This document shows positions 1,995-17,911 of a stretch of 31,403 bases of DNA, piece after piece. Made by a program: the position numbers and the translations under genes. This DNA comes from a virus. Numbering within the stretch: position 1 is the stretch's first letter; every line of letters starts with the position of its first letter. The notes beneath the pieces were generated by a model. It was not told the origin of the DNA and made no database searches. It was given only the letters and a program-made list of their open reading frames with translations. Where the stretch lies: the IMG/VR virus record IMGVR_UViG_3300027898_000030, positions 1 to 31,403 of that record, one strand, 5' to 3'.

Positions 1995-2202
1995 GGGGAA
2001 GCCCCAGCACCTTCTCGCGCAACTCAGCCCGCGCGATAGACATGCAGTTGTCGCACATGTGGTTCACGCCCACAACGTACGGAGCGAGCTTGGGAAGCGA
2101 CAGCGAGCTACCGTAGGGGGTAGCAAACCTGTACTCCTGCGGCTCGCTGCACAGGTTCTTGCACCAGTCGCAGCGCAGCTCGTAACGAACATGCAGCGTC
2201 AT
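1984..2202 (-). CDS. Small zinc-ribbon-like protein, 72 aa
   Basis: The ATG at 2202 overlaps the stop of the 293-aa gene (ATGA), which sets the start. A longer in-frame extension upstream is arginine/proline junk typical of out-of-frame GC-rich sequence. Cysteines at about residues 11, 14 and 18 and a second pair at 50 and 53 (CDWC and CDNC) could bind one zinc ion as a ribbon or knuckle. The C-terminal helix is charged (RAELREKVLG). It could bind nucleic acid or a protein partner. It is co-translated with the DUF3150-like gene, but no functional link is proven. Confidence 0.75.
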   Translation of the reverse strand: MTLHVRYELRCDWCKNLCSEPQEYRFATPYGSSLSLPKLAPYVVGVNHMCDNCMSIARAELREKVLGLPRET

Positions 2203-3080
2203 ATCTGAAACTTCCCGAGGATGCCGGCAACTGCGCTGCGCACGTCTTCGCGCTTGGCAGGGTCGTCGCGCAGGGTGTGCACCGTCACGCCCGTCAGGGC
2301 GTTCTCCAGCAGCCGGCGTGCGTGCGCCAGCGTCGGGTCGGCCGTGATGTTGTAGTCCCGCACCAGATCGCACAGCTCATACGCGCTCGTCACCAGCGTC
2401 TCCGTGAAGCGGCGCCCCACGAGGTCGCCCGTCTTGGGGTCGGTATCCGTGGTCAGCCGGTCGGCCATGCGCTTGAGGTGGCCCACGAACTTGTCAGTAA
2501 CCTCCTGCATGGCCCGCTCGACACGGGCGTTGGCCATCTTCTCCAGCCGCGCACGCAGCTCGTCCTGCGCTTGGTTGCCGATGTCCACGCGGATGTCGCC
2601 CGCCGCCGGCACAGGCATGTAGTTGACCGTCATGCCGAACTTGCCTGCGATCTCGCCCGCGCTCGGGAACTCCGAGCGGTTGAACATATCGCCCAGCGCC
2701 ATGGCCTGCGCGGTTATGAGTGTTGGATACAGCGCCACGAACGACGCCACCTTGGCATTGAACTGCTCGCGGTATTCCTCGACCTTCTTGTCGAACTCGG
2801 GGAAGCGCGCGCCGACCAGCATGCGCTGGCCAGAGTCGCTCCAAGGCAACGTGTTGTCGTACACGTAGTTGCGCACGACCGTCACCAGCTGGGAGATTTC
2901 CTCCAGCTCAGGCCGGCCCGCCAGCAGGTTCTTGTTGACCCGCGCAGCGCCCTTGCTCTTGGCGCCAGCGCCCTCGACCACCTTGTCGGACTCCTTGCGG
3001 TCCAGCTTGCGTGCGGTCCACACGCTCGCGTTGAACTCGCAAATAAGTGCCACGGAATTGAGATTGAAATTTTTGCTCAT
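2199..3080 (-). CDS. DUF3150-like protein of the MoxR/VWA operon
   Basis: This 293-aa, mostly helical soluble protein has an SD AGGAGTAATGAC directly before the ATG at 3080. The N-terminal part (VALICEFNASVWTARKLDRK, with NKNLL further on) and the middle (ARFPEFDKKVEEYREQFNAK) resemble DUF3150-type proteins. In phages and some bacteria these are encoded beside a MoxR AAA+ ATPase and a VWA protein, as here. Residues about 170-230 are a long charged helix, a likely coiled coil. No catalytic residues are apparent. It is probably a partner or substrate adaptor of the ATPase. The family call is from memory of pattern and context, so moderately sure. Confidence 0.8.
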   Translation of the reverse strand: MSKNFNLNSVALICEFNASVWTARKLDRKESDKVVEGAGAKSKGAARVNKNLLAGRPELEEISQLVTVVRNYVYDNTLPWSDSGQRMLVGARFPEFDKKVEEYREQFNAKVASFVALYPTLITAQAMALGDMFNRSEFPSAGEIAGKFGMTVNYMPVPAAGDIRVDIGNQAQDELRARLEKMANARVERAMQEVTDKFVGHLKRMADRLTTDTDPKTGDLVGRRFTETLVTSAYELCDLVRDYNITADPTLAHARRLLENALTGVTVHTLRDDPAKREDVRSAVAGILGKFQI

Positions 3081-3098
3081 GTCATTACTCCTAAATTA

Positions 3099-3410
3099 TT
3101 AAACCCACTTCTCCAGCTCGCACACATCACACCCGTACCGCACTCCCGCGATGTCCAGCAGCCACTGCGCAGCAGAGCGCCGGTCCATGCCGTCGCTTAT
3201 CCCGCGTGTCGGCTTGCGTACCTGCTTCGCAGTAACCAAGGTCTGGCTCGCTGCGTCCATCACGTCGATGATGCGCATGCTTGAGTCACCGAACGGCACT
3301 TGAAACACGACGTGCAGCGGTGCAACGATCACGTCCTCTGGCATCAGGAACTGCACCAGCGCCAGATCGTACGGGCCGCGCATCGTCTCTACAACGCCCG
3401 CTTTCTTCAT
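3099..3410 (-). CDS. Hypothetical 103-aa protein, MoxR operon
   Basis: The start at 3410 (MKKAGVVETMRG) overlaps the upstream stop (ATGA) and has GAGGGTG five bases upstream. An ATG at 3425 is a weaker alternative. The middle is beta-like (LHVVFQVPFGDSSMRIIDVM), and residues near the C-terminus hold a CDVC pair. No homologous family is recognised. It lies between the three paralogous small genes and the DUF3150-like gene in one unbroken operon, so a role with the MoxR/VWA machinery is plausible but only by context. Confidence 0.75.
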   Translation of the reverse strand: MKKAGVVETMRGPYDLALVQFLMPEDVIVAPLHVVFQVPFGDSSMRIIDVMDAASQTLVTAKQVRKPTRGISDGMDRRSAAQWLLDIAGVRYGCDVCELEKWV

Positions 3411-3766
3411 GGCAGCACCCTCCATTCGTTGAGCTTCGCAATCATCCGCTCGCCGATCTCCTCCATTACTTCCACGGGTGTCCCAGCCGGCATCGTCAGC
3501 TCAACATACACCGCAGGGTCCGAGGCGCTGCGAGCGACAACCACCTTCTGCCCCGCGTTGTTCTTTTTAAACGATACGTCGGTCATCAGCGGGCCGCGCC
3601 AGTTAGGCCCCACCTCCGCCCCACGAAAGAACGGCACGGCTTCTACTGCGTAGAATGACTGCGGGTCTTTGTTGAGGTTCCCAAACTGTCCGCGCGGATC
3701 GGTCCAGTCGTGCTGGTACCGCTCGCCTTCCCGTTTTATCGGGGCAAGTCCAAAGCCGGGAGTCAT
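3407..3766 (-). CDS. Small paralog C of the MoxR operon, 119 aa
   Basis: The ATG at 3766 overlaps the stop of the 189-aa gene. The C-terminal ~65 residues follow the order WRG, then a strand, then VYVELTMPAGTPVEVMEEIG, then a helix ending LNEWR. The two genes immediately upstream show the same order (W-x-G, two strands, a loop, then a helix ending near N-x-x-R), so I read the three as diverged tandem duplicates. The fold looks like strands packed with one helix. No enzyme motif is visible. It may be a subunit, adaptor or target of the MoxR/VWA complex. Confidence 0.8.
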   Translation of the reverse strand: MTPGFGLAPIKREGERYQHDWTDPRGQFGNLNKDPQSFYAVEAVPFFRGAEVGPNWRGPLMTDVSFKKNNAGQKVVVARSASDPAVYVELTMPAGTPVEVMEEIGERMIAKLNEWRVLP

Positions 3767-4332
3767 CCTTGCCTCTGCTGGTTAATGGCTTCGAGGTAGG
3801 TCTGCGCCATGGCGTTGACTTCAGCTCCGCTGAACTTTTCCAGATCGAAACGCACCGTGATCATTGTGTCCGACCACTTGCTGGTGAATGTCACGCGCCA
3901 GCAGTCCGCCATTGCTTGCCGGTTGACCGTCTCGTAATACGCGCCACGCCAGTCAGCGGGTAGCGGTTTGTCGCCGATCATCAGCACGCCGAACTCGTGC
4001 GCCTGCTTAGGCGCGGCCTTCATCTGCTGATTCTGCGACGATACGTTGAGCTGATTTCCTATCGACGACTGCGAAGCGGCATTGTTCTGTAGAGCACCGG
4101 CTTGCTTGTAGTACTCCTTCAACGCCGTCGAGTTGTCTGCCTGCAGCTGCATAAGGTTAATTTCAGTGGCCGTTTTTTTAATGTCCATAAGTGCGTATTT
4201 CTTTTCTAGATGTTCAAGCTGCAGCAGGTATTGCCTGCGGTGGAAGGTTGCATCGGTAAGGTCGCGTGCGTTTTGCAACGCGTATTCAAGATCACGCGAC
4301 AAGCGCTCTCGCGCTATTTCGTAGTCGTTCAT
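3763..4332 (-). CDS. Small paralog B of the MoxR operon, 189 aa
   Basis: It begins MNDYEIARERLSRDLEYALQ at an ATG overlapping the upstream stop. Residues 1-85 are helical and probably coiled coil. Residues about 78-105 are Asn/Gln/Ser-rich linker (NAASQSSIGNQLNVSSQNQQ). The last ~65 residues (DWRGAYYETV ... ITVRFDLEKFSGAEVN ... YLEAINQQR) match the C-terminal domain of the two flanking genes. The gene therefore looks like that shared domain plus a helical N-terminal oligomerisation arm. Function unknown. Confidence 0.8.
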   Translation of the reverse strand: MNDYEIARERLSRDLEYALQNARDLTDATFHRRQYLLQLEHLEKKYALMDIKKTATEINLMQLQADNSTALKEYYKQAGALQNNAASQSSIGNQLNVSSQNQQMKAAPKQAHEFGVLMIGDKPLPADWRGAYYETVNRQAMADCWRVTFTSKWSDTMITVRFDLEKFSGAEVNAMAQTYLEAINQQRQG

Positions 4333-4745
4333 TTTGCCTCCGTGCGCTGCATGTTGAGCAGCATTGTGTAGGTGCTTACGGCCATTCGTGTTTCTTCCGG
4401 CGTGAGTGCTGGCGACAGGTGCAGGACGAAAACAGTGCAGCCCGTGCCGCTGCTATCTTCCCCTGTCAGATACACCTGCAGCGTCTTGGTCCATTGCGAC
4501 ACACGCGCGCTGTAACCTGTAAGCTCCGGCCCAGTCCAAGGACTGCCAACGTCCCAGAACGGATCGGGGTTGCCGAGCTTGTGCAGCCGCCCGGGTGGAA
4601 GCGCAGTGATGCTCCCGTCCGTCTTGGCCAGCGACGAAGCTGCCAATGTTGTCACCGAACGTGAGCGCAGCTGCGGCGGTAAGGTGTTGCCTGTTGCCAT
4701 GCTGTGCCTTTGTAATTTCTCCAGCGCCTGCTCGAACTCAGACAT
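4329..4745 (-). CDS. Small paralog A of the MoxR operon, 138 aa
   Basis: The start is the ATG at 4745 (MSEFEQALEKLQRHSM), overlapping the last eight bases of the VWA gene. Longer in-frame extensions read as Arg/Ser/Thr junk. A short N-terminal helix and linker precede the C-terminal domain shared with the next two genes (PWTGPELTGY ... CTVFVLHLSPALTPEE ... MLLNMQR). Tight coupling to the VWA gene suggests its product acts with the VWA protein. No homologs are recognised outside this cluster. Confidence 0.8.
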   Translation of the reverse strand: MSEFEQALEKLQRHSMATGNTLPPQLRSRSVTTLAASSLAKTDGSITALPPGRLHKLGNPDPFWDVGSPWTGPELTGYSARVSQWTKTLQVYLTGEDSSGTGCTVFVLHLSPALTPEETRMAVSTYTMLLNMQRTEAK

Positions 4746-5946
4746 TCGGGTCGATGTGCAGGACCCTGCCACGCAGCGGGACGAACCGCGTGTTGTCCAC
4801 CACACCCCAGATGACGTTGCCCGGCGGCACCTCGTAGCTGCTCTCGATGTACCCGTCAGTCAGCATGATCACGGCCTTGGGCTTGTACTGCTTCGCACGG
4901 ATGTGCGCTGCAACGCACGACACCGTAGTGCCGCCACCGCCCTTGGGGGCCAGCGCCTTGCCCATCTGCGGGTAGTCCTTGATCGTGAACACCTGCTCGC
5001 CTGCGATGCGCGTATCCCACCAAAGCAAGCGCACCTTGGCTGGCTGCAGCTGCTGGCAGATGCGCGCCACCTCGCCGAACACGACCGGGTAGTACCCGCT
5101 CATGGAGCCGGACGTATCCGCTGCGATGATGATCTCCCCCGTCATCTCACTAAAGTGCGAGGGCATGATCACGTCCAGCGGCAGCATGCGCTTGTTCGGG
5201 GGGTTGAACCGCGACTGCTCGTCACCTTCGCAGAACTCTTGGAAGAGTCGCCGCAGCATGGGGCGCCAGTCGGTGCGCTGCTCCCGAAAGCCATTGAGCG
5301 CCACGGCCGGGCCGCTGTTGGCGCTGCGCAGCTGGCCCTGCACGATCTCGCCATGGCGCACGGCGTCGTCCAGCTTCTGCTTGGCGTCAGCCAGCTCCTG
5401 CTCGTTCTCAGGCGTGCACTCGCGCATCTCGTGCACGTCCATGGGCGAGGGCGGGCCGCTGCCCTGCCCCTTGCCCTTCATCTGCGGCGGTGGGGGGTTT
5501 TTCAGCAGCTCGCGCACAACCTCGGGCACGCTCATGTCCGCGTACTTGGGGTCGATCAGCGGGGGCACGAGCGTGGGGCGCTCAAGGAACTTGTCCGTGC
5601 CCGTGTCCATGCTCTCCAGCTGCCAGTTCACCACGTAGTCGATGGCCTGCCCAAACTCGTCGGGATGCGCCTTGAACAGCGGGATGTAGTCCGTGCAGTG
5701 GTGCAGCGCCTTGTGCATGTTCTCGTGCCCCACGAGATAGCGCAGCTGCTTGCGCGTCATGTCCTTGATGAACGCGGCGCCGTACTTGGCGTTCTCCCCG
5801 TCCGTGCAGGCCGTGAGCGTCTCGTCGTCCACCGTTACCCTGCCGATCTGCGTGACGCCCCCGAGGATGCAGAAGTCCGGGTGGCGCATGAAGTCGGTGT
5901 GCACCGCTACGATCTTCTCGTAAGGCGACAGGTCTTTAAAAGCCAT
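4738..5946 (-). CDS. VWA-domain protein with HExxH metallopeptidase-like region (DUF2201 type)
   Basis: The 402-aa protein starts at the ATG at 5946 after AGGAGATTGACT. Residues about 70-83 (LVGHENMHKALHH) hold an HExxH zinc motif, H74-E75-H78, as in the putative metallopeptidase half of DUF2201 proteins. Residues 150-172 are a Pro/Gly linker. Residues 272-400 form a von Willebrand A domain with an intact MIDAS: DTSGS at 277-281, a GGGGTT loop at 336-341 and TDG at 363-365. Such proteins are partners of MoxR AAA+ ATPases, here encoded two genes upstream. It probably is a metal-binding adaptor coupling ATP-driven remodelling to a target; peptidase activity is unproven. Confidence 0.92.
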   Translation of the reverse strand: MAFKDLSPYEKIVAVHTDFMRHPDFCILGGVTQIGRVTVDDETLTACTDGENAKYGAAFIKDMTRKQLRYLVGHENMHKALHHCTDYIPLFKAHPDEFGQAIDYVVNWQLESMDTGTDKFLERPTLVPPLIDPKYADMSVPEVVRELLKNPPPPQMKGKGQGSGPPSPMDVHEMRECTPENEQELADAKQKLDDAVRHGEIVQGQLRSANSGPAVALNGFREQRTDWRPMLRRLFQEFCEGDEQSRFNPPNKRMLPLDVIMPSHFSEMTGEIIIAADTSGSMSGYYPVVFGEVARICQQLQPAKVRLLWWDTRIAGEQVFTIKDYPQMGKALAPKGGGGTTVSCVAAHIRAKQYKPKAVIMLTDGYIESSYEVPPGNVIWGVVDNTRFVPLRGRVLHIDPNV

Positions 5947-5956
5947 AGTCAATCTC

Positions 5957-6298
5957 CTATTTACAGTGAAAGTCTGCGTCGTCAAATAGCCGGTAGTCCA
6001 GCCCGGCGCGCGTAGCGAACAGGTTGGCCATGAACTCCAGCTTTCGGCGCTGGGTGTCGAAGCTCGTACCCTGCATGACGTACTCGTCCATGACAGGGAC
6101 GCGGTACACGCGGTACACGCGTATCTCCGCGCCACTGGTGTTGTACGCCGCAGTGAGGGATGTAGCCCGGCAGTAGATGCGTAGCATTAGCTGGCCCTTG
6201 CGGTTCAGCCGGCCATACGACACCACCCGCTTGAGCTGCATGAGCCCGCCAAATATGCGGGGCGTGTACGTCCGCCCCCCATGCTCAAACGTGTACAC
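5957..6298 (-). CDS. Hypothetical 113-aa protein between moxR and VWA genes
   Basis: The frame opens with GTG at 6298, one base after the stop of the MoxR gene, so translation probably continues by coupling; no clear SD is visible. The product (MYTFEHGGRTYTPRIFGG...) is basic and beta-rich in its first 75 residues, with a short repeated VYRVYRV coded by a duplicated GGTACACGC unit. The C-terminus is helical (RRKLEFMANLFATRAGL). It is not recognised. Its position between the ATPase and its VWA partner suggests membership of the same complex. Confidence 0.7.
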   Translation of the reverse strand: MYTFEHGGRTYTPRIFGGLMQLKRVVSYGRLNRKGQLMLRIYCRATSLTAAYNTSGAEIRVYRVYRVPVMDEYVMQGTSFDTQRRKLEFMANLFATRAGLDYRLFDDADFHCK

Positions 6299-6299
6299 G

Positions 6300-7427
6300 T
6301 CAGGCGCCCAGGAACTTGCGGTTCTCGGCCAACATAGCGTTGAACGTGGCGCTCAGTGCGAAGTCCTGCAGCCGTCCCTTGCTGTTGGCCACGCAGTTCA
6401 CGAACAGCGATTTCATCTCGCCCTTCATGCGCTGGGTGTACTCGCTCACGGCCTCGGCCTGCTCACGGTCCTGCACCTGCTTGATGAACTGGAACACCTG
6501 CACGATCTGCGCGGTCGGGTTGCTTGGCAGCGGCGCGCCGGCCGGGTCCGCTATCACGCGGTCGTACGACGGCAGCTGATCGCCGAAGCGGACCATGCTC
6601 ATGATGTTGGCTGCGAACGCAGCGCCCACAGCCCCGGCAAGCGCGTGCTGCAGGGTCGCGTCGTCCATCCCTGCGCGGGCGTCCACGATGTCGCTGGCGG
6701 TGTGCAACGACCGGCCTGTGACCACCTGCCCCTGCCCGGCGTTGGCCGGGTCGCTGATGTACGGGTTGTCCCGCGCCATGCTCTTGCCAGCATGCTTGCC
6801 GCCAGCGCGATAGTCCAAGAACGAATCGAACGCCATGGGATACATCTCGCACGCAGCGATGACCGTCTCGTTCACACCGGCAGGGATGGCGAAGTTCTGT
6901 ACCCACTCGTCCTTGGTGGGCTTGCGCATCTGCACGATGATCAGCCGGTTACGCAGGTGAGGCTGCATGTGGTCGCCCAGCCCCTCGTCGGTCAGGTTGG
7001 TCGCGCCCCACACGATGCTGCCCGGAGCGAAGCCGTAGTTGCCCACGCGGCGCTCGTACACGATGGGTGCCAGCACGTCCTTGATGAACTGGCGCGTCTT
7101 GCCAATCTCGTCCAAGCAGATAAGCGCAGGGCGTGCGCCCTCGACTCCTGCGTGGTTCTCGTCGTCAACCCCGAAGCGCTCGTTGGGCAGCTCGCGCGAC
7201 ACGCCACGGCTGCGGTCGATGTCGGGCATCCACACCGAGCCATCCGAGAGCTGCGTGCAGTCGATGGGCTTGGGCGTGTAGTAATGCTTGAACTCAGGCA
7301 GCTTGGCCAGCGCGTAGTGCATGGCGGTCTTGCCCGAACCGGCTTCGCCTTCGACCAGCACGGTGCGCTTGGCGCCCACGGACTTGATCAGGTTGATAAC
7401 TTGTGCGGAAGAGAGGAGGTTGCTCAT
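6300..7427 (-). CDS. MoxR-type AAA+ ATPase
   Basis: This 375-aa ATPase carries Walker A GEAGSGKT at residues 27-34, Walker B ALICLDEIGK around 101-110 (D106, E107), a sensor-1 asparagine in GATN at 141-144 and an arginine cluster LRNR at 158-161. The wide Walker A to Walker B spacing and the lid region (GRSLHTASDIVDA) fit the MoxR/CbbQ clade. Members use ATP to remodel or load metal into partners and are encoded beside VWA proteins, as here. The ATG at 7427 follows AAGGAAATCGAC. It is soluble, probably hexameric. The substrate is unknown. Confidence 0.93.
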   Translation of the reverse strand: MSNLLSSAQVINLIKSVGAKRTVLVEGEAGSGKTAMHYALAKLPEFKHYYTPKPIDCTQLSDGSVWMPDIDRSRGVSRELPNERFGVDDENHAGVEGARPALICLDEIGKTRQFIKDVLAPIVYERRVGNYGFAPGSIVWGATNLTDEGLGDHMQPHLRNRLIIVQMRKPTKDEWVQNFAIPAGVNETVIAACEMYPMAFDSFLDYRAGGKHAGKSMARDNPYISDPANAGQGQVVTGRSLHTASDIVDARAGMDDATLQHALAGAVGAAFAANIMSMVRFGDQLPSYDRVIADPAGAPLPSNPTAQIVQVFQFIKQVQDREQAEAVSEYTQRMKGEMKSLFVNCVANSKGRLQDFALSATFNAMLAENRKFLGA

Positions 7428-7451
7428 GTCGATTTCCTTTTGTTGAAGTGC

Positions 7452-7823
7452 TTACATAATGCGCAGCAAGAAAACGCTGCGGGTCTTGGGGTCGTACTGG
7501 TGCACGATGTTCTCTGTGCCCCACATCTTCTCGGCGAACTTGCGCGCGCCCTGCGTGTAGCCGTTGTAGTCGGCTCCGTCCGGCGTGCTCAGATTAAACG
7601 TTTCGCCGGGCTCCAGCTTCCCTATCAGCGGGGCGTACACCGCTTTGTACGAGCCGCGCGGGCGCATGTGGCGCTTGCCGGGCTTCTTCTCGGGTTCAGG
7701 TGCGCGCAGCACCATGCCCCCTTTGTTGAAGACTTCCTCGCCGTCCACCAGCACGACGCCGACGGCGCCGAAAATATCCAGAAGGGCACGCACGCGTGCG
7801 ATGGATTGCTGTTTGATGTCCAT
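7452..7823 (-). CDS. First gene of the MoxR operon, 123-aa hypothetical
   Basis: The ATG at 7823 (MDIKQQSIARVRALLDIFGA) has CGGAG six bases upstream. An in-frame extension to 7907 would run through the -10 box and palindrome and is rejected. The protein has an N-terminal helix, a strand pair (VGVVLVDGEEVFNKGGMVLR), a basic loop (EKKPGKRHMRPRG) and a C-terminal Trp/Tyr-rich part. I recognise no domain. As the first gene after the promoter it could be an autoregulator, but no helix-turn-helix is convincing. Confidence 0.8.
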   Translation of the reverse strand: MDIKQQSIARVRALLDIFGAVGVVLVDGEEVFNKGGMVLRAPEPEKKPGKRHMRPRGSYKAVYAPLIGKLEPGETFNLSTPDGADYNGYTQGARKFAEKMWGTENIVHQYDPKTRSVFLLRIM

Positions 7824-7907: not shown

Positions 7908-7914
7908 TATTTTG

Positions 7915-7938
7915 TTAAGGGGGCAATCTGTCCCCTTA
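7915..7938. repeat. Dispersed GGGGACA/TGTCCC palindrome, copy 1
   Basis: The plus strand reads TTAAGGGGG, CAATC, then TGTCCCCTTA. It is the most diverged copy (GGGGGCA instead of GGGGACA) and lies between the stop of the zinc peptidase gene and the MoxR-operon promoter. There is no following T-tract in either direction, so it is not a standard terminator. Confidence 0.6.
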
Positions 7939-7945
7939 TGGTGCG

Positions 7946-9172
7946 TCAGCTGCTCTGGAGGTCTTCGCCCAGTATGTCCAGCAGCGTCTCGTAGTCGTAC
8001 TCACCTGACTCCAGCCCCTCGACGTACGAGGCGTACATCGTGGCGCTGAGCTTGCTGCACAGGATGTGCCGCTTCGCGGTGTCAACGTCTTCAGGCAGCA
8101 GGTGCTCGGCAACAATGTCCCGCAGCATCGAGTAGTACCCACCGGTAGCCTCCCACAGGGCATCAGCGAGCCGCTGCTCCGGTTCGTCAAGCAGTTGTAT
8201 GTGGCGCGTGAGTGGTGCGTTCACCCAGTCCAGCGACGTGTCGGTGTAGACGCCCTTGTACGATTTGTACTCGGTCACGCGCGGGTCACGCACGGTCGGC
8301 AGGCTGTCCCAGTCGATGGTCACCAGCTGCGCGGCCATGCGCTGCAGGAACGACACGTCCTGCCACTCGCCGTCACCGTGCTGGCTGCGGTAGCCCACGC
8401 TCAGGTTGGTGCACTCGGGCACGATGCCGGTCAGGTTGGCGCTGTCGGTGAACACGCCCGTGTCGTCGGGCATATACAGCATGTTGTTGTCGAACGAGGT
8501 CAGCGCATCGGCAAGCGCTTGGCCGAACACGTCCGAGCAGCAGCGCGCGCCTTGGTGCGTGATCACGTCGCTGTACCCTGCGCGGTCCAGACTGATGCAG
8601 CGGTCGATGTCCTTGAGCGCATCGGGCATGTTCTCTGCGAGCCAGCCTGAGCCGACGCCGCCGTGCTCTTCGCCACGGAAGAATATGTAGTATGCCTTCA
8701 CACCGGCCTCCATCATGTGCATCATCAGCGCGATGCCGGCGCCATCGTCTGCGCCCAGACACGCGCCCTCGTCTGCACGCCACCTGATGGCCTGCGGGTC
8801 AGACGCGTCGAGCCGCACGTTGTTGGTCCCGCCGTTGCGGTGCACGGTGTCGGTGTGCGCCGTGAACAACGTGCGGTGCGAGGGCTGCGTGCGCAGGTCC
8901 ACGTGGATGTTGCCCGCGTTGTCGATCATGCTCACCGCGCAGCGGTTGACCAGCCACGCCACGAACCGCGCTTCGGACATCGAGTTCTCTGCGCGACGCG
9001 AGCGCACTGCGCGCCACAGGGTCTGCATCAGCGTCGTGTCTGGCACATCATCTGCGCTCAGCAACGGCAGGCCTGCGTGAGCGTATGGCGGCTTCACGTA
9101 CACGGGCGGCGTGCTAAAGATACCCGTGGGCTTGGTTTTTGCGTAGCCCACCGAACGATACTTCTTGCTCAT
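7946..9172 (-). CDS. Zinc-dependent aminopeptidase/carboxypeptidase-like protein (M28/M20 type)
   Basis: The 408-aa protein carries a full set of co-catalytic zinc peptidase motifs: HTD at residues 106-108, a GADDGAG metal-bridging Asp at 142-143, GEEHGG with catalytic and metal Glu at 168-169, SLDR with Asp196, and GYRSQHGDGEW with His265. These are the five ligands and base of the M20/M28/M42 clan (MH). The ~90-residue N-terminal and ~120-residue C-terminal parts are not recognised. The ATG at 9172 follows AAGGAGAATGAC. There is no signal peptide, so it acts in the cytoplasm. It could trim peptides released by phage takeover or process a phage protein. Confidence 0.85.
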   Translation of the reverse strand: MSKKYRSVGYAKTKPTGIFSTPPVYVKPPYAHAGLPLLSADDVPDTTLMQTLWRAVRSRRAENSMSEARFVAWLVNRCAVSMIDNAGNIHVDLRTQPSHRTLFTAHTDTVHRNGGTNNVRLDASDPQAIRWRADEGACLGADDGAGIALMMHMMEAGVKAYYIFFRGEEHGGVGSGWLAENMPDALKDIDRCISLDRAGYSDVITHQGARCCSDVFGQALADALTSFDNNMLYMPDDTGVFTDSANLTGIVPECTNLSVGYRSQHGDGEWQDVSFLQRMAAQLVTIDWDSLPTVRDPRVTEYKSYKGVYTDTSLDWVNAPLTRHIQLLDEPEQRLADALWEATGGYYSMLRDIVAEHLLPEDVDTAKRHILCSKLSATMYASYVEGLESGEYDYETLLDILGEDLQSS

Positions 9173-10655: not shown

Positions 10656-10678
10656 GTCATTCTCCGAAAGGTTATGTA

Positions 10679-10702
10679 CTAAGGGGACAGGTTGTCCCCC
10701 TT
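10679..10702. repeat. Dispersed GGGGACA/TGTCCC palindrome, copy 2
   Basis: The plus strand has TAAGGGGACA, GGT, then TGTCCCCCTT. It lies about 24 bases upstream of the start of the 490-aa gene, in a 100-base gap after the 39-aa gene. In RNA of the minus strand it would form a hairpin just before the ribosome binding site. Confidence 0.65.
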
Positions 10703-10757
10703 GGCGCACTAGCGTGCGTGCGGTCTTGGTGCCGCGTTGGGAGTGGTGCGTGTCTGC

Positions 10758-10877: not shown

Positions 10878-10993
10878 ACGCGCTCCCAGTACATCCACCG
10901 ACCATTGCGCATACTGCGAAAAAGATACATGTTGGCGAATCCGCCGCGGCGGTAGAACGCGTCTTTGCTGATGCGTCTTTTAGCGTAGTCCAT
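10871..10993 (-). CDS. 40-aa basic micro-protein
   Basis: A strong GGAGG lies six bases before the ATG at 10993, which falls inside the last 14 bases of the NinX-like gene. The product (MDYAKRRISKDAFYRRGGFA...) is rich in Arg, Tyr, Trp and Met, with a C-terminal RNGRWMYWERVC. Its stop lies within the start of the next gene. SD strength and overlaps at both ends support translation. No family is known. Confidence 0.6.
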   Translation of the reverse strand: MDYAKRRISKDAFYRRGGFANMYLFRSMRNGRWMYWERVC

Positions 10994-11387
10994 CAGGCAC
11001 CTCCACTTCCTCGCCCAGTTTGCTTGCCACATAGCAGCGCATGGCTGCGATCAGGGGTTTGGGGCCGTATTGCTCTGCGAACTCTGGCTTTTCTTGCGGA
11101 GTGTTTAGAAACATGTAGTTAGTAGCTTTCGCTACCCACCCATCAACGGCCCATTTGTGCAGTTCGATTTCCTCCCGCTCAATGATCGGGCCGCCTTGTG
11201 CCCAGTCGGTTGATGGCCGGAACCAAATATAGCTCCTGCCCTTCGGCACCATGATGCCGATGACTTTTCCGTGCGCATCTTTGCGTATGTCAGGCCACAT
11301 CATGTATTTTTCGGAGTCCCACCCTTCACACTTCGCTACCAGCCAGTCGAGCATGGTGCCCGTGGCTTCAGATACTTTGATCTTCAT
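10980..11387 (-). CDS. NinX-like DUF2591 protein, copy 1
   Basis: The 135-aa product has the DUF2591 (lambda-family NinX) signature: MKIKVSEATGTMLDWLVAKCEG at the start, STDWAQGGPIIEREEIEL in the middle and PLIAAMRCYVASKLGEEVEVP at the end. These proteins are common in phage nin-type accessory regions; their biochemical role is unknown. The ATG at 11387 overlaps the stop of a second, similar gene. The two copies keep long identical DNA stretches, showing a fairly recent tandem duplication. This copy has an extra ~20 residues in the middle. Confidence 0.9.
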   Translation of the reverse strand: MKIKVSEATGTMLDWLVAKCEGWDSEKYMMWPDIRKDAHGKVIGIMVPKGRSYIWFRPSTDWAQGGPIIEREEIELHKWAVDGWVAKATNYMFLNTPQEKPEFAEQYGPKPLIAAMRCYVASKLGEEVEVPDGLR

Positions 11388-12558: not shown

Positions 12559-12573
12559 GTCATTCTCCAAATG

Positions 12574-12597
12574 TTAAGGGGACAAAATGTCCCTTTA
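12574..12597. repeat. Dispersed GGGGACA/TGTCCC palindrome, copy 3
   Basis: The plus strand has TTAAGGGGACA, AA, then ATGTCCCTTTA. It lies in the 44-base gap between the end of the 303-aa gene and the start of the 88-aa gene, 16 bases upstream of that start. Confidence 0.65.
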
Positions 12598-12602
12598 GTG
12601 TT

Positions 12603-13514: not shown

Positions 13515-13526
13515 GGTGGCTCCGGG

Positions 13527-13550
13527 TTAGGGGGACAAAGTGTCCCTTTA
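13527..13550. repeat. Dispersed GGGGACA/TGTCCC palindrome, copy 4
   Basis: The plus strand has TTAGGGGGACA, AAG, then TGTCCCTTTA. It lies 13 bases upstream of the 303-aa gene and marks the left edge of the AT-rich gap. Confidence 0.65.
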
Positions 13551-13976
13551 GCGCCATTCTGCCACAATATACATAGCAGTTGGAGCGTTAAAGTTGTAAA
13601 TGCTGGCACGCGTGCCAAGATATACATAGGTCTGTGCCATTTGAGCAGCTATGTGGACTGCTATATGAACGGGCCGCAAAGGCCCTATCCATCAACATAC
13701 AGAGCAAAACAGACTGGCTCTAAAGGCAATGTGGCTAATGGCCAGAAAAAAAACACACACAATTATAGAGGCACAAAAAATGAGTGCTGAATATAAGCGC
13801 GTGTGTATAGAGAAACAGATAGCCTCATACGTATATATTTATTTTAAGAGTTATATATATGTATGGTTGTCTGATAGAAAAGCCTTATGAATCAACACAC
13901 TGCGCTCACCAAGCTGGGTGGCTTATGGCTGGCGCAGCGTGCTGTAAACACTGGCATGTGCTCTGAGTCGTACCAA
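13551..13976. other. AT-rich intergenic region with repeats, possible origin or control region
   Basis: About 425 bases lack a convincing gene. Visible elements are a 14-bp perfect palindrome TGGCACGCGTGCCA (13604-13617), two copies of ATATACATAG (13567-13576 and 13620-13629), and a GGGCC/GGCCC hairpin near 13672. A run of A's is followed by a very AT-rich stretch (about 13741-13880). One short plus-strand frame (about 13780-13890, 36 codons, GAGG upstream) could exist but has no other support. Low melting energy beside palindromes would suit a replication origin or a control region. Confidence 0.4.
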
Positions 13977-14260: not shown

Positions 14261-14283
14261 CTAAGGGGACACTTGTCCCTTTA
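14261..14283. repeat. Dispersed GGGGACA/TGTCCC palindrome, copy 5
   Basis: The plus strand has CTAAGGGGACA, CT, then TGTCCCTTTAG. It lies 21 bases upstream of the start of the 87-aa gene. Confidence 0.65.
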
Positions 14284-14295
14284 GGATGCTGACGC

Positions 14296-14408: not shown

Positions 14409-14813
14409 TTACTCGGCCTTGGCAGTAGCGATAGCAGCAGCGATCAACTTGCCTGCTTGCTCGTACGTGTTGCCCAGCTTCACCAGCTTGCGCGCCAGTG
14501 CCAGCATCTCGGCCGGCACTTCCAGTTCCTCGGCCTGCGCCTTGGACTTGCCCACGATGTCTGCCGTCAGACGCTGCAACGCCTTCTTGGCCGCCTCGAA
14601 CTTCTTGGCATTCACGTCGAAGGTCTTACCCTCACCGCGCTCCTTGTCAACCAGCGCCACGCCATAGAACGTCGCCACATAGGGCAGCAAGGTAGCGCGC
14701 ACCTCGGGGGACAATTGTCCCTTTAGTGCGCTGCGCAGCGCGTCGATCGAGACGCTATAGGCGCCAGCTGCGGTCAGGGCTGCGGATACATGGGATTGGA
14801 TAGATGCGTTCAT
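14409..14813 (-). CDS. Helical 134-aa protein, first gene of the left arm
   Basis: The ATG at 14813 (MNASIQSHVSAALTAAG) has GGAG eight bases upstream. The product is Ala/Lys-rich and almost fully helical (KKFEAAKKALQRLTADIVGK and ELEVPAEMLALARKLVKLG). It is the leftward gene closest to the divergent region, so probably expressed early. A copy of the dispersed palindrome (14705-14725) lies inside it in frame and codes for LKGQLSPE. No domain is recognised; it may be a small DNA-binding or host-interaction protein. Confidence 0.8.
   Translation of the reverse strand: MNASIQSHVSAALTAAGAYSVSIDALRSALKGQLSPEVRATLLPYVATFYGVALVDKERGEGKTFDVNAKKFEAAKKALQRLTADIVGKSKAQAEELEVPAEMLALARKLVKLGNTYEQAGKLIAAAIATAKAE
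14705..14725. repeat. Dispersed palindrome copy 6, inside a coding sequence
   Basis: CGGGGGACA, AT, then TGTCCCTTTAG lie within the 134-aa gene and are read as LKGQLSPE without disturbing the frame. The other five copies lie between genes. Confidence 0.6.
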
Positions 14814-15013: not shown

Positions 15014-15040
15014 ACTTTCCGTGAGATTCGTTGCAGCGAA
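15014..15040 (+). repeat. 27-bp direct repeat, copy 1
   Basis: It begins ACTTTCCGTGAGATTCG and ends in TTGCAGCGAA. The last 14 bases (TTCGTTGCAGCGAA) form a near-palindrome centred on TGCA. A second identical copy starts 49 bases downstream. The pair lies about 200 bases upstream of the small terminase gene. Confidence 0.85.
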
Positions 15041-15062: not shown

Positions 15063-15089
15063 ACTTTCCGTGAGATTCGTTGCAGCGAA
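15063..15089 (+). repeat. 27-bp direct repeat, copy 2
   Basis: Identical over 27 bases to the copy at 15014-15040, with a 49-base period, close to five helical turns. Both copies would therefore face nearly the same side of the DNA. Confidence 0.85.
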
Positions 15090-15246: not shown

Positions 15247-15833
15247 CGCCGCACATCCTCGCCCACTTGGAAGCGCTAGACCCCGCACAGTTCGTGTCGC
15301 TGGAAGACGCCGACGCGTTCCAGACCATTGGCGCGCAAGCCGCAACCGCGCAGGAAATCCTGATGCAGATGGGCAGCCCCGAGCACGTGCTGCGCGCAGA
15401 CCAAGCCCAGCAGGTACGTGACACTTTCGGCGCCATCCTGTCCCCCGCGCTCAATGACGTAGACAAGAAGGCCGCGGTCCTGAGTCTGCGCGCGCCCCAA
15501 GCGGTACGGCACTTGACGGGCATGCTTTCTGCTTTTGACTGGGCGTACGTTGAGCACGTCAACGAGTTGCGTGGATACGTTGTGGCGAAGCTGCTGGAAG
15601 AGACCAAGCACCCCGACGCGAAAATCCGGCTGCGCGCGCTGGAGCAGTTGGGCAAGGTCACCGAGGTGGGCGTGTTTACCGAACGCATCGAGGTCAAGAA
15701 GACCGAGATTTCAGACGCGGAGATCGACGCGAAGATCAAGGAGAAGATCAACCGGTTCATGGGCGTGATCGACGTGGCGGACGTCTCCGACGCGCCGGTA
15801 CTGGAAAGTCAGTCCTCCAATGCAGCTGGATAA
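15243..15833 (+). CDS. terS: Terminase small subunit (probable)
   Basis: This 196-aa helical protein directly precedes the large terminase gene and overlaps it by 14 bases. The stretch LRGYVVAKLLEETKHPDAKI followed by RALEQLGKVTEVGVFTER and a charged C-terminal helix is a pattern I associate with small terminase subunits. The family recognises the packaging site and regulates the large subunit. I chose the ATG at 15243 because it overlaps the leader stop; a GTG at 15219 would add eight residues. Its binding sites may be the 27-bp repeats upstream. Confidence 0.75.
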   Translation: MTPHILAHLEALDPAQFVSLEDADAFQTIGAQAATAQEILMQMGSPEHVLRADQAQQVRDTFGAILSPALNDVDKKAAVLSLRAPQAVRHLTGMLSAFDWAYVEHVNELRGYVVAKLLEETKHPDAKIRLRALEQLGKVTEVGVFTERIEVKKTEISDAEIDAKIKEKINRFMGVIDVADVSDAPVLESQSSNAAG

Positions 15834-17361
15834 GCTGACCTCGCTCACGCGTGTCGAGCTGCAAGCGCTGACTGCGGCGCTGCCCTCCATGTCGCTCAAG
15901 GAGAAGATTGAGCTGATGGAGATGCTGGAGAAGCGCGAGCGGCGCGCGCGCCTGCAGGTGGCCGAGCAGAGCATGCTGGGGTTTGCCACCGCCGTGTACC
16001 CGGGGTTCAAGATCGGCCCGCACCACCGCAAGCTGGCCAAGGTGTTCACCGACGTAGTCGAGGGGCGCAAGAAGCGCGTGATCATCAACATCGCGCCACG
16101 TATGGGCAAGTCCGAGTTTTCGTCGTACCTGTTCCCGTCGTACTTCTTGGGCAAGTTCCCGGAGAAGAAAATCATCATGGGCACGCACACGGCGGGCCTG
16201 TCCGAAGACTTCGGTCGTCGGGTACGTAACTTGCTTGGATCAGAGGAGTACCATGAAATCTTCCCGAAAACGCTGGTTGCGGATGACCAAAAGGCGGCGG
16301 GCAAATGGTCTACGTCTGCGGGCGGCCAGTACTACGCGGCGGGCGTCGGTGGCGCTCTGGCGGGCCGCGGAGCTGATCTTTTTGTCATTGACGACCCCCA
16401 TTCTGAGCAGGACGTAAAGATCAACAGCCGCCTTGCGTTCGACACGGCGTGGAGCTGGTTCCAGACGGGTCCGCTGCAGCGCCTGATGCCCGGCGGAGCG
16501 ATCATCGTCATCATGACGCGCTGGGGGTTGCTGGACCTGACCGGGCGGTTGATCGACTACCAGATCAGGAACCCCGACAGCCCGCCGTGGGAGATCGTGG
16601 AGCTGCCGGCCATCCTCAACGAGGGCGAGGAGACGGAGAAGAGCCTGTGGCCCGAGCAGTGGCCGCTGGAGACGCTCAAAAGCACCAAGGCCTCCATGGA
16701 CCCGCGATACTGGAACGCCCAGTACATGCAGCAGCCCACCGCGGACGTCTCGGCCATCATCAGCCGCAAGAACTGGCGCATATGGGAGAAGGACGAGCCG
16801 CCCAAGTGCGATATAATCGTACAGACTTGGGACACGGCGTTTGAAGCGAGCACGTCAGCCGACTTTTCTGCCTGCACTACGTGGGGCGTGTGGTACAACG
16901 AAGAAGACGGAAATACTCCGCATGCAATTTTGCTTGATGCGTTCAAAGATCGCATGCAGTTTCCAGAGTTGAAAGCGGTTGCCTACAAGCAGTACAAAGA
17001 ATGGGAACCGGACGTACTGATTGTGGAAAAAAAGGCTTCGGGCGCCCCGCTCATTTACGAGTTAAGAGCCATGGGCGTGCCGGTGCAGGAATTTACGCCC
17101 AGTCGTGGAAATGATAAGGTTGTGCGGCTAAATGCGGTGTCTGATGTTTTTGCATCCGGCAGGGTGTGGGTACCTGATCGCCGTTGGGCGCGCGAGGTGG
17201 TTGAAGAAGTAGCCAGTTTTCCTGTAGGGGCGAACGATGACTACGTGGACTGTGTGTCGATGGCACTTTTGCGCATGCGTCAAGGAGGGCTTGTCGGCAG
17301 CGAAAAAGATGAAAAAGACGAGCCTGCTTTATTTCGTAGGAGAGCACGTGCATATTACTAG
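15820..17361 (+). CDS. terL: Terminase large subunit
   Basis: The 513-aa packaging motor has an N-terminal ATPase with a Walker A-like APRMGKSE (92-99), Walker B LFVIDDPHSE (187-196) and coupling motif MTRW (232-235). Its C-terminal RNase H-like nuclease has TWDTAFE with D338, VEKKASG with E403 and GANDDYVDCVSMAL with D474/D477. It translocates DNA into the prohead and cuts it. Codon usage is uniformly GC-ending up to about residue 330 and mixed afterwards, breaking exactly at the ATPase/nuclease junction. The last 14 bases overlap the HNH gene. Confidence 0.96.
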   Translation: MQLDKLTSLTRVELQALTAALPSMSLKEKIELMEMLEKRERRARLQVAEQSMLGFATAVYPGFKIGPHHRKLAKVFTDVVEGRKKRVIINIAPRMGKSEFSSYLFPSYFLGKFPEKKIIMGTHTAGLSEDFGRRVRNLLGSEEYHEIFPKTLVADDQKAAGKWSTSAGGQYYAAGVGGALAGRGADLFVIDDPHSEQDVKINSRLAFDTAWSWFQTGPLQRLMPGGAIIVIMTRWGLLDLTGRLIDYQIRNPDSPPWEIVELPAILNEGEETEKSLWPEQWPLETLKSTKASMDPRYWNAQYMQQPTADVSAIISRKNWRIWEKDEPPKCDIIVQTWDTAFEASTSADFSACTTWGVWYNEEDGNTPHAILLDAFKDRMQFPELKAVAYKQYKEWEPDVLIVEKKASGAPLIYELRAMGVPVQEFTPSRGNDKVVRLNAVSDVFASGRVWVPDRRWAREVVEEVASFPVGANDDYVDCVSMALLRMRQGGLVGSEKDEKDEPALFRRRARAYY

Positions 17362-17911
17362 CTGGACAAATGCAAAAGCGCAAGGGCTAAAACAATACTT
17401 TACGGGCATTCCCTGTAAAGCGGGACACGTGGCTGCGCGAGACGTGTCCGACCGTTCTTGCTACCTTTGCAAATTGCAAAAAGCTGCAGCGTGGAAGCAC
17501 CAAAACGCAGAAAAGCACGCCGCCGCTAACCGTGCGTGGGCAGAACGCAACAATAAGAACGTGCGACGCACGCAGTTGAAAGTTCGAGCTAAAGACCCCC
17601 GCGGTTATTGGGCATCGAGCACTTTCCAAAACGCACGTAAGCGCGCATTGCGCAAAGGGGTGCCGTTTAGCATAACCCGGCAGGACCTGTTGGACGCACT
17701 TACAGATAAATGCCCGGTTTTTGGCACAGTGTTCGATTTCATTGGGGCGGGGCGCATAACACCCGAAAGTCCGTCACTAGACAGAGCGCGTCCAGAATTG
17801 GGATACGTGCGCGACAATATTGCGATAATCTCCATGAAAGCCAATGCGATAAAACAAAACGCTACTTGGGAACAAGTGCGGGCAGTGGCAGACTGGATGC
17901 AGAACCGTTAA
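17348..17911 (+). CDS. HNH-type homing endonuclease between terL and portal
   Basis: I start at GTG 17348 (MHITSWTNAKAQG), with AGGAG six bases upstream, inside the end of terL. The 187-aa protein has an N-terminal zinc module YFTGIPCKAGH...C-x-x-C (residues about 17-42) and a basic middle. Its C-terminal core is PSLDRARPELGYVRDNIAII with SMKANAIKQNAT, typical of one HNH/endonuclease VII-like phage group. Free-standing HNH genes next to terL are frequent and spread by copying themselves and flanking DNA. Codon use is poorer in GC than portal and matches the 3' part of terL. Confidence 0.82.
   Translation: MHITSWTNAKAQGLKQYFTGIPCKAGHVAARDVSDRSCYLCKLQKAAAWKHQNAEKHAAANRAWAERNNKNVRRTQLKVRAKDPRGYWASSTFQNARKRALRKGVPFSITRQDLLDALTDKCPVFGTVFDFIGAGRITPESPSLDRARPELGYVRDNIAIISMKANAIKQNATWEQVRAVADWMQNR

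Follow-up and report, generated by a model that had tools for sequence, protein, structure and literature searches.

A MoxR-VWA-DUF3150 gene trio shared by phages and plasmids as a candidate early protein-remodelling machine

The DNA considered here is positions 1 to 31,403 of the virus record IMGVR_UViG_3300027898_000030 in IMG/VR, and this whole stretch of 31,403 nucleotides is referred to as the window. Terminase, portal and other structural genes occupy its right half on the plus strand, while the gene run under study lies in the left half on the minus strand. Reading from 7823 to 2199, the run consists of nine open reading frames (ORFs) in the order s0, MoxR, s1, VWA, s2, s3, s4, s5 and DUF3150. 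An earlier note on this DNA had given the place, coordinates and domain calls of the run correctly, but it counted five small genes where the ORF check yields six within 2199-7823. The intergenic gaps range from -8 to +24 nucleotides with several four-nucleotide overlaps, and the G+C content at third codon positions (GC3), which serves as a coding signature in the window, is high for all nine ORFs (0.87-0.90 in the three core genes and 0.68-0.82 in the small genes); together these properties make the run operon-like in its sequence. The three core genes are as follows.

6300..7427, minus strand: MoxR-type AAA+ ATPase, 375 amino acids (PHROG 1297 'ATPase' at 2.9e-34; conserved ATPase residues)
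4738..5946, minus strand: VWA protein with an N-terminal zincin-like domain, 402 amino acids (DUF2201_N and DUF2201 matches, motifs and an AlphaFold model)
2199..3080, minus strand: DUF3150 protein, 293 amino acids, mostly helical (homology over the full length to DUF3150-annotated proteins; family profile matches)

Residue conservation was scored across 65 aligned MoxR and 74 aligned VWA sequences of phage and plasmid origin. In the ATPase, G32 and K33 (Walker A), D106 (Walker B), N144 (sensor), R161 (Arg) and R239 (sensor-2) are present in 65 of 65 aligned relatives, and the Walker B glutamate at position 107 is kept in 60 and replaced by D in the other 5. Pfam AAA models matched the window MoxR weakly and below cut-off, PF07726 (AAA_3) was not found, and no close relative turned up among isolates: as a query the window MoxR reached only Schitoviridae and Erwinia phages, at 25-28% identity over part of its length. 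The VWA protein matches DUF2201_N at 3.6e-12 (46.9 bits versus a cut-off of 23.2) and DUF2201 at 7.8e-13 (49.1 versus 26.4 bits) in Pfam, and PHROG 1314 at 1.4e-60. Its MIDAS residues D277, S279, S281, T340 and D364 (DxSxS, T, D) are invariant across all 74 aligned sequences. The HExxHxxxxH motif spans residues 74-83, with H74, E75, H78 and H83 kept in 73-74 of the 74 sequences (E75 in 73) and D103 in every one, H83 and D103 both being candidates for the third ligand; the sole loss of HExxH is the Variovorax plasmid copy. These alignments bear out what the earlier note had read in the two proteins, namely intact Walker, sensor and Arg residues in MoxR and an intact MIDAS with an N-terminal HExxH in the VWA protein. 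Because the metal-site motif is near-invariant, it suggests a working or structural zinc site. In the AlphaFold monomer model of the VWA protein (predicted local distance difference test, pLDDT, of 82) the C-terminal part has its best PDB match in the human MDN1 MIDAS domain (E 1.9e-5); Rea1 is among the other fold matches, NorD stands lower in the list, and the closest solved folds are 8ql1 and 6qta. PHROG 1314 and deposited records such as Zuri gp44 label this VWA/metallopeptidase family 'HNH endonuclease', which looks like an annotation error.

The third core protein is placed in the DUF3150 family through its relatives. The window protein itself falls below the gathering score of PF11348 (E=0.018; 14.8 versus 24.9 bits), is 26% identical over 98% of its length to a DUF3150-annotated protein of MinM2 (E 7e-23), and has 39 phage and plasmid family members of which 31 match PF11348 at E up to 1 (best 2.6e-8). 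Among isolates, the DUF3150 query reached only three deposited 65-kb phage records. Its monomer model (pLDDT 80; predicted template modelling score 0.45) is built of long helices and short strands. Comparison of this model with the PDB returned no fold match (best E 0.1), and comparison with a viral structure library returned eight matches below E 0.001, one of them named DUF3150 and the rest unnamed proteins of comparable size. The family is rare in chromosomes, since a survey of 399 genomes from a single phylum showed the profile in none but the starting genome. A search of 5.39 million papers, sparse in subscription titles, returned none that mentions DUF3150. In other phages, an Nmad5-like protein (L105, 8763-9377) and a DUF6744-like protein (L107, 8403-9230) occupy the slot between MoxR and VWA in place of DUF3150. 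Profile comparison found no link between these proteins and DUF3150, so that homology was rejected; they are possible functional stand-ins.

Searches of viral contigs with DUF3150 gave 132 related stretches, the best 80 of which were kept, and co-conservation was counted on phage contigs with at least 4.5 kb of upstream DNA. All three genes are present in 50 of 50 such contigs, in the order MoxR-VWA-DUF3150 in 48 and VWA-MoxR-DUF3150 in 2; closely related contigs are among the 50, which therefore do not stand for that many independent events. MinM2 carries MoxR, a small gene, DUF3150, three small genes and then VWA. The trio was also found in each of the seven inspected plasmids with a DUF2201-type VWA (Simplicispira, Rhodovastum, Caballeronia, Cupriavidus, two from Burkholderia, and Variovorax). 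There the order is ATPase-DUF3150-VWA, with the genes direct neighbours in six and several small genes between the ATPase and DUF3150 in Simplicispira, and type IV secretion system (T4SS) or PRTRC genes often lie nearby. The seven uncut bacterial loci all hold the trio as well, arranged MoxR-DUF3150-VWA (for example in Rhodocyclus) or DUF3150-MoxR-VWA (in Pseudovibrio, with a terminase gene nearby, and in Bartonella). Since four gene orders occur overall, the linkage does not reflect inherited synteny alone. Over 61 loci, the protein distances of the three show correlations of 0.87-0.89 with one another. The trio thus stays together throughout a large set of related phages and at most of the plasmid and bacterial loci inspected, in keeping with the proposal of the earlier note that these three genes form one functional set, and MoxR-VWA-DUF3150 is very likely a real three-part unit.

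Genes of replication and recombination recur beside the trio. RecT and a toprim primase flank it in Rhodocyclus, a toprim gene in the Rhodovastum plasmid and a sliding clamp in Pseudovibrio. A second type of trio, found on pAQU1, an IncC plasmid and plasmids of Pseudomonas and Xanthomonas, combines a CbbQ-like or AAA ATPase and DUF3150 with a CobT-like or other VWA protein. Next to this type lie ssb, Bet/RecT and a lambda-type exonuclease; its neighbours in Xanthomonas are ssb, a PD-(D/E)XK nuclease and toprim. The IncC/pAQU1-type set beside ssb-bet-exo has the same three kinds of component as the window, DUF3150 included, but its VWA is CobT-like without DUF2201_N and its DUF3150 is longer (434 amino acids; 277.6 bits to PF11348) and remote in sequence. 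PF11348 bridges the two forms, and their direct hhalign comparison is weak but colinear. Among plasmid records, 1,130 match the IncC/pAQU1-type DUF3150. In the SXT element, s067/s068/s070, whose deletion cut transfer by up to 10-fold (PMC2791158), could not be equated with DUF3150 or VWA and are positional candidates only; s063, whose effect was 100-fold, is divergent with respect to that operon (PMC4344509) and was not adopted as the ATPase.

Placement of the trio among early genes was examined in related phages. In a 69-kb relative (G005) a rightward block begins with the trio and runs on through DNA polymerase A, a PD-(D/E)XK nuclease, an SNF2 helicase and a primase/helicase-like protein, and capsid, portal and terminase lie on the opposite strand. 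Across 17 related phage records, DNA polymerase A is present in 15 and the PD-(D/E)XK nuclease in 16. In 14 of these 15, contig coordinates put the polymerase some 5-11 kb 3' of the trio and on its strand, the fifteenth contig being cut between the two, and terL is on the strand opposite the trio in all 13 loci where it was detected. The early minus-strand half of the window also holds all six copies of a dyad, AAGGGGACA-N-TGTCCC, mostly just 5' of gene starts; exact dyads of the form AAGGGGACA...TGTCCC number 5 in the window versus 0.24 expected. The repeat search placed the copies as follows, with no strand assigned.

7914-7939: dyad copy just 5' of s0, between the s0-MoxR-VWA-DUF3150 unit and the upstream peptidase gene
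10678-10703: dyad copy
12573-12598: dyad copy
13526-13551: dyad copy
14265-14291: dyad copy
14707-14733: dyad copy

Five similar dyads occur in G005, only in its early block, and one of them stands at the place corresponding to 7914-7939. The dyad is probably an operator of early genes, and the trio would be expressed early, judging by its strand, its neighbours and the dyads. Scans of the DNA for sigma-70 promoters and terminators gave nothing above chance. Given the early placement, action of the trio inside the host cell is plausible.

These results point to a protein-remodelling machine with three constant parts, borne by mobile elements and acting early, which would aid the establishment of their DNA and whose client is probably a nucleoprotein complex in replication or recombination; we give this reading a probability of roughly one half. 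MoxR would assemble into an AAA+ ring that hydrolyses ATP. The MIDAS of the VWA protein would grip an acidic residue or peptide of the client and pass on the pull of the ring, and cleavage by its N-terminal zincin-like domain is possible as well. DUF3150, being mainly helical, could act as an adaptor or linker that joins client, VWA protein and ring into one complex. The client would most likely be a nucleoprotein complex, belonging to the element or to the host, that is met while the DNA of the element is replicated and recombined. The trio probably belongs to the MoxR-VWA remodelling class; service in replication or recombination specifically is a more tentative assignment, to which we give slightly less than even odds. 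With Midasin/Rea1 and RavA-ViaA the trio shares the MIDAS domain as closest solved fold and the principle of a motor coupled to a VWA protein in remodelling. Those systems are cellular factors of ribosome assembly and of respiratory complexes, and they are not known to have an HExxH domain or DUF3150.

Several observations weigh against this reading. The client is deduced from neighbouring genes only, most of the Burkholderiales plasmid trios are flanked by T4SS or PRTRC genes and not by recombination genes, and RecT, looked for in 17 trio-bearing phages, was found in none. The terL control for the distance correlation covers 7 loci only and is not discriminating. On the Candidatus Manganitrophus plasmid CP114559.1 (L131), DUF3150 has DUF1257, DUF2997 and an AAA protein of a different sort as neighbours, and the annotation shows no VWA gene in the vicinity. 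Lastly, Schitoviridae and other phages have a MoxR-VWA pair with no detectable DUF3150, so not every such pair requires it. The comparison with N4-like phages drawn in the earlier note was apt in this respect, as Zuri (Schitoviridae) has MoxR, a small gene and VWA. The Schitoviridae pair (Zuri gp42/gp44; genes 33 and 36 of Delftia phage RG-2014) resembles the window in its MoxR and DUF2201-type VWA and lies near dCTP deaminase/dUTPase and thymidylate synthase genes. The Zuri proteins are 21-28% identical to those of the window; unlike the window, Zuri has a 60-amino-acid protein between MoxR and VWA and no DUF3150 was detected in it.

A different purpose for an early machine would be host takeover or anti-defence, in which the trio, at an early point of infection or plasmid entry, takes apart or destroys a complex that serves the host in defence or housekeeping. 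The location on the early strand suits such a role, the phages, plasmids and prophage-like loci that carry the trio face the same host, and the conserved HExxH motif would fit destruction of a client. Against this, the genes gave no PADLOC-DB match apart from weak generic P-loop matches of MoxR and one weak match of the upstream peptidase; the recurring neighbours include no known anti-defence gene, those of known function belonging to replication/recombination and conjugation; and the accessory genes vary by lineage with no recognisable effector among them. A host-directed trio, and takeover or anti-defence as its purpose, seems rather unlikely to us. Host conflict systems include a ternary MoxR-vWA-VMAP kind (PMC7159879). 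Like the window trio, it joins MoxR and vWA to a constant third protein; in the conflict systems, however, that protein is VMAP, which had no Pfam match among the ten window proteins scanned.

A MoxR AAA+ / vWA-metallopeptidase pair has been reported in group 2.2 jumbo phages and proposed to act in virion assembly (Iyer et al. 2021, PMC7824862), which raises the possibility that the trio is an assembly chaperone with a processing protease, a role also reported for the tail of the archaeal virus ATV. The jumbo-phage pair has the same architecture, a phage-encoded MoxR with a vWA protein bearing an N-terminal metallopeptidase domain. In the available part of that report no third protein is described, whereas in the window group DUF3150 is constant, the location is early and on the replication side, and plasmids have the trio too. 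Plasmids make no virions, and in phages the early strand carries both the trio and the polymerase, helicase and primase genes while terL and capsid genes lie opposite; this placement, also 5' of the DNA polymerase, argues against virion assembly, which we regard as improbable. The phage MoxR-VWA(metallopeptidase) pair is accordingly known already, and it is the ternary form with DUF3150 that appears to be undescribed in the literature searched.

The earlier note had gone further and suggested one multi-part complex of all the genes of the run, small ones included. The six small genes are listed below.

7452..7823, minus strand: s0, accessory, 123 amino acids; the most widespread small gene; ORFs related to it occur in 27 loci, the window among them, but not always at the same position
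5957..6298, minus strand: s1, accessory, 113 amino acids, GTG start; syntenic relatives 31-37% identical, cluster of 10 loci
4329..4745, minus strand: s2, accessory, 138 amino acids; relatives only in the closest phages; weakly related to s3 (its profile reaches s3 relatives at E ~2e-3)
3763..4332, minus strand: s3, accessory, 189 amino acids; weakly related to s2, the s2/s3 cluster comprising 5 loci
3407..3766, minus strand: s4, accessory, 119 amino acids, GC3 0.72; no relative found beyond the window
3099..3410, minus strand: s5, accessory, 103 amino acids; 49% identical relatives adjoin DUF3150 in L001 and L002

A single nine-gene complex would agree with the tight spacing and four-nucleotide overlaps, and s1, s2 and s5 are kept in the closest relatives. 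The narrow distribution of s1, of the s2/s3 cluster and of s4 speaks against it, as do at least 13 phage loci that consist of the bare three-gene core, and GC3 is lower in the small genes than in the core. The co-conservation in related phages that had been suggested as a check thus holds for the core and fails for the small genes; these are lineage-specific, a constant place for them in the complex is not supported, and the nine-gene complex is quite improbable. HNH-type genes, homing endonuclease-like by eye, are inserted inside the module in the relatives L003 (9483-9992 and 11126-11605) and L007 (9446-9991).

Viral cobST pairs have been interpreted as cobaltochelatase parts in cobalamin synthesis (Liu et al. 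2021, PMC8651126), and they resemble the window as a two-gene cluster of AAA+ and VWA/MIDAS proteins in tailed viruses; in the part of that report available, however, the VWA is of CobT type and no DUF3150 is named. Although phage MoxR-VWA pairs are often annotated cobS/cobT (PMC8651126, PMC9503304), it is very improbable that the trio is a viral cobaltochelatase boosting cobalamin through host CobN, because the Pfam profiles of its VWA argue against cobalt chelation (DUF2201_N/DUF2201, and at E up to 1 no hit to CobT), none of the loci inspected was noted to have a CobN-like gene, and the CobT-like plasmid form also carries DUF3150, not a described cobaltochelatase subunit, and adjoins recombination genes.

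Returning to the three-part remodelling machine, a broader form of the proposal would see MoxR-VWA-DUF3150 as a general ATP-driven remodeller or protease, common to phages, IncC-type and other plasmids and prophage-like loci, that clears or reshapes protein-DNA complexes in recombination-coupled replication, with DUF3150 as a defining subunit able to work with two MoxR/VWA subtypes; we put this forward as speculative and rather doubtful. If true, a three-gene system for which the usual labels are 'hypothetical' and 'CobS/CobT', with 'HNH endonuclease' also in use, would be a tool common to phages and conjugative elements, among them the IncC plasmids that spread drug resistance. DUF3150 would gain a role, and the long-puzzling phage MoxR-VWA pairs would acquire an early replication/recombination setting in place of virion building or vitamin B12.

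Other features of the window were noted around the trio. The upstream peptidase gene (7946-9172, minus strand), 5' of the trio unit, encodes a putative metallopeptidase (Pfam M28 3.4e-6; PHROG 4191 'peptidase' 2.8e-67) whose distribution is limited to the closest relatives plus a handful of further loci (L024, L025, L046). A tandem pair of small paralogues (MKIKVSEATG.../MKIKISEASG...) is encoded at 10980-11387 and 11384-~11730, also on the minus strand; the repeats D2, D4 and D5 were noted with them. The terminase gene (15820-17361, plus strand) has relatives in the Pelagibacter phages HTVC027P/HTVC023P and in MinM2, and an ORF of HNH-like look (17237-17911, plus strand) overlaps the end of terL and lies between terL and portal. 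At the divide between the early and late strands, a perfect 27-nucleotide direct repeat occupies 15014-15040 and 15063-15089, the copies being 49 nucleotides apart.

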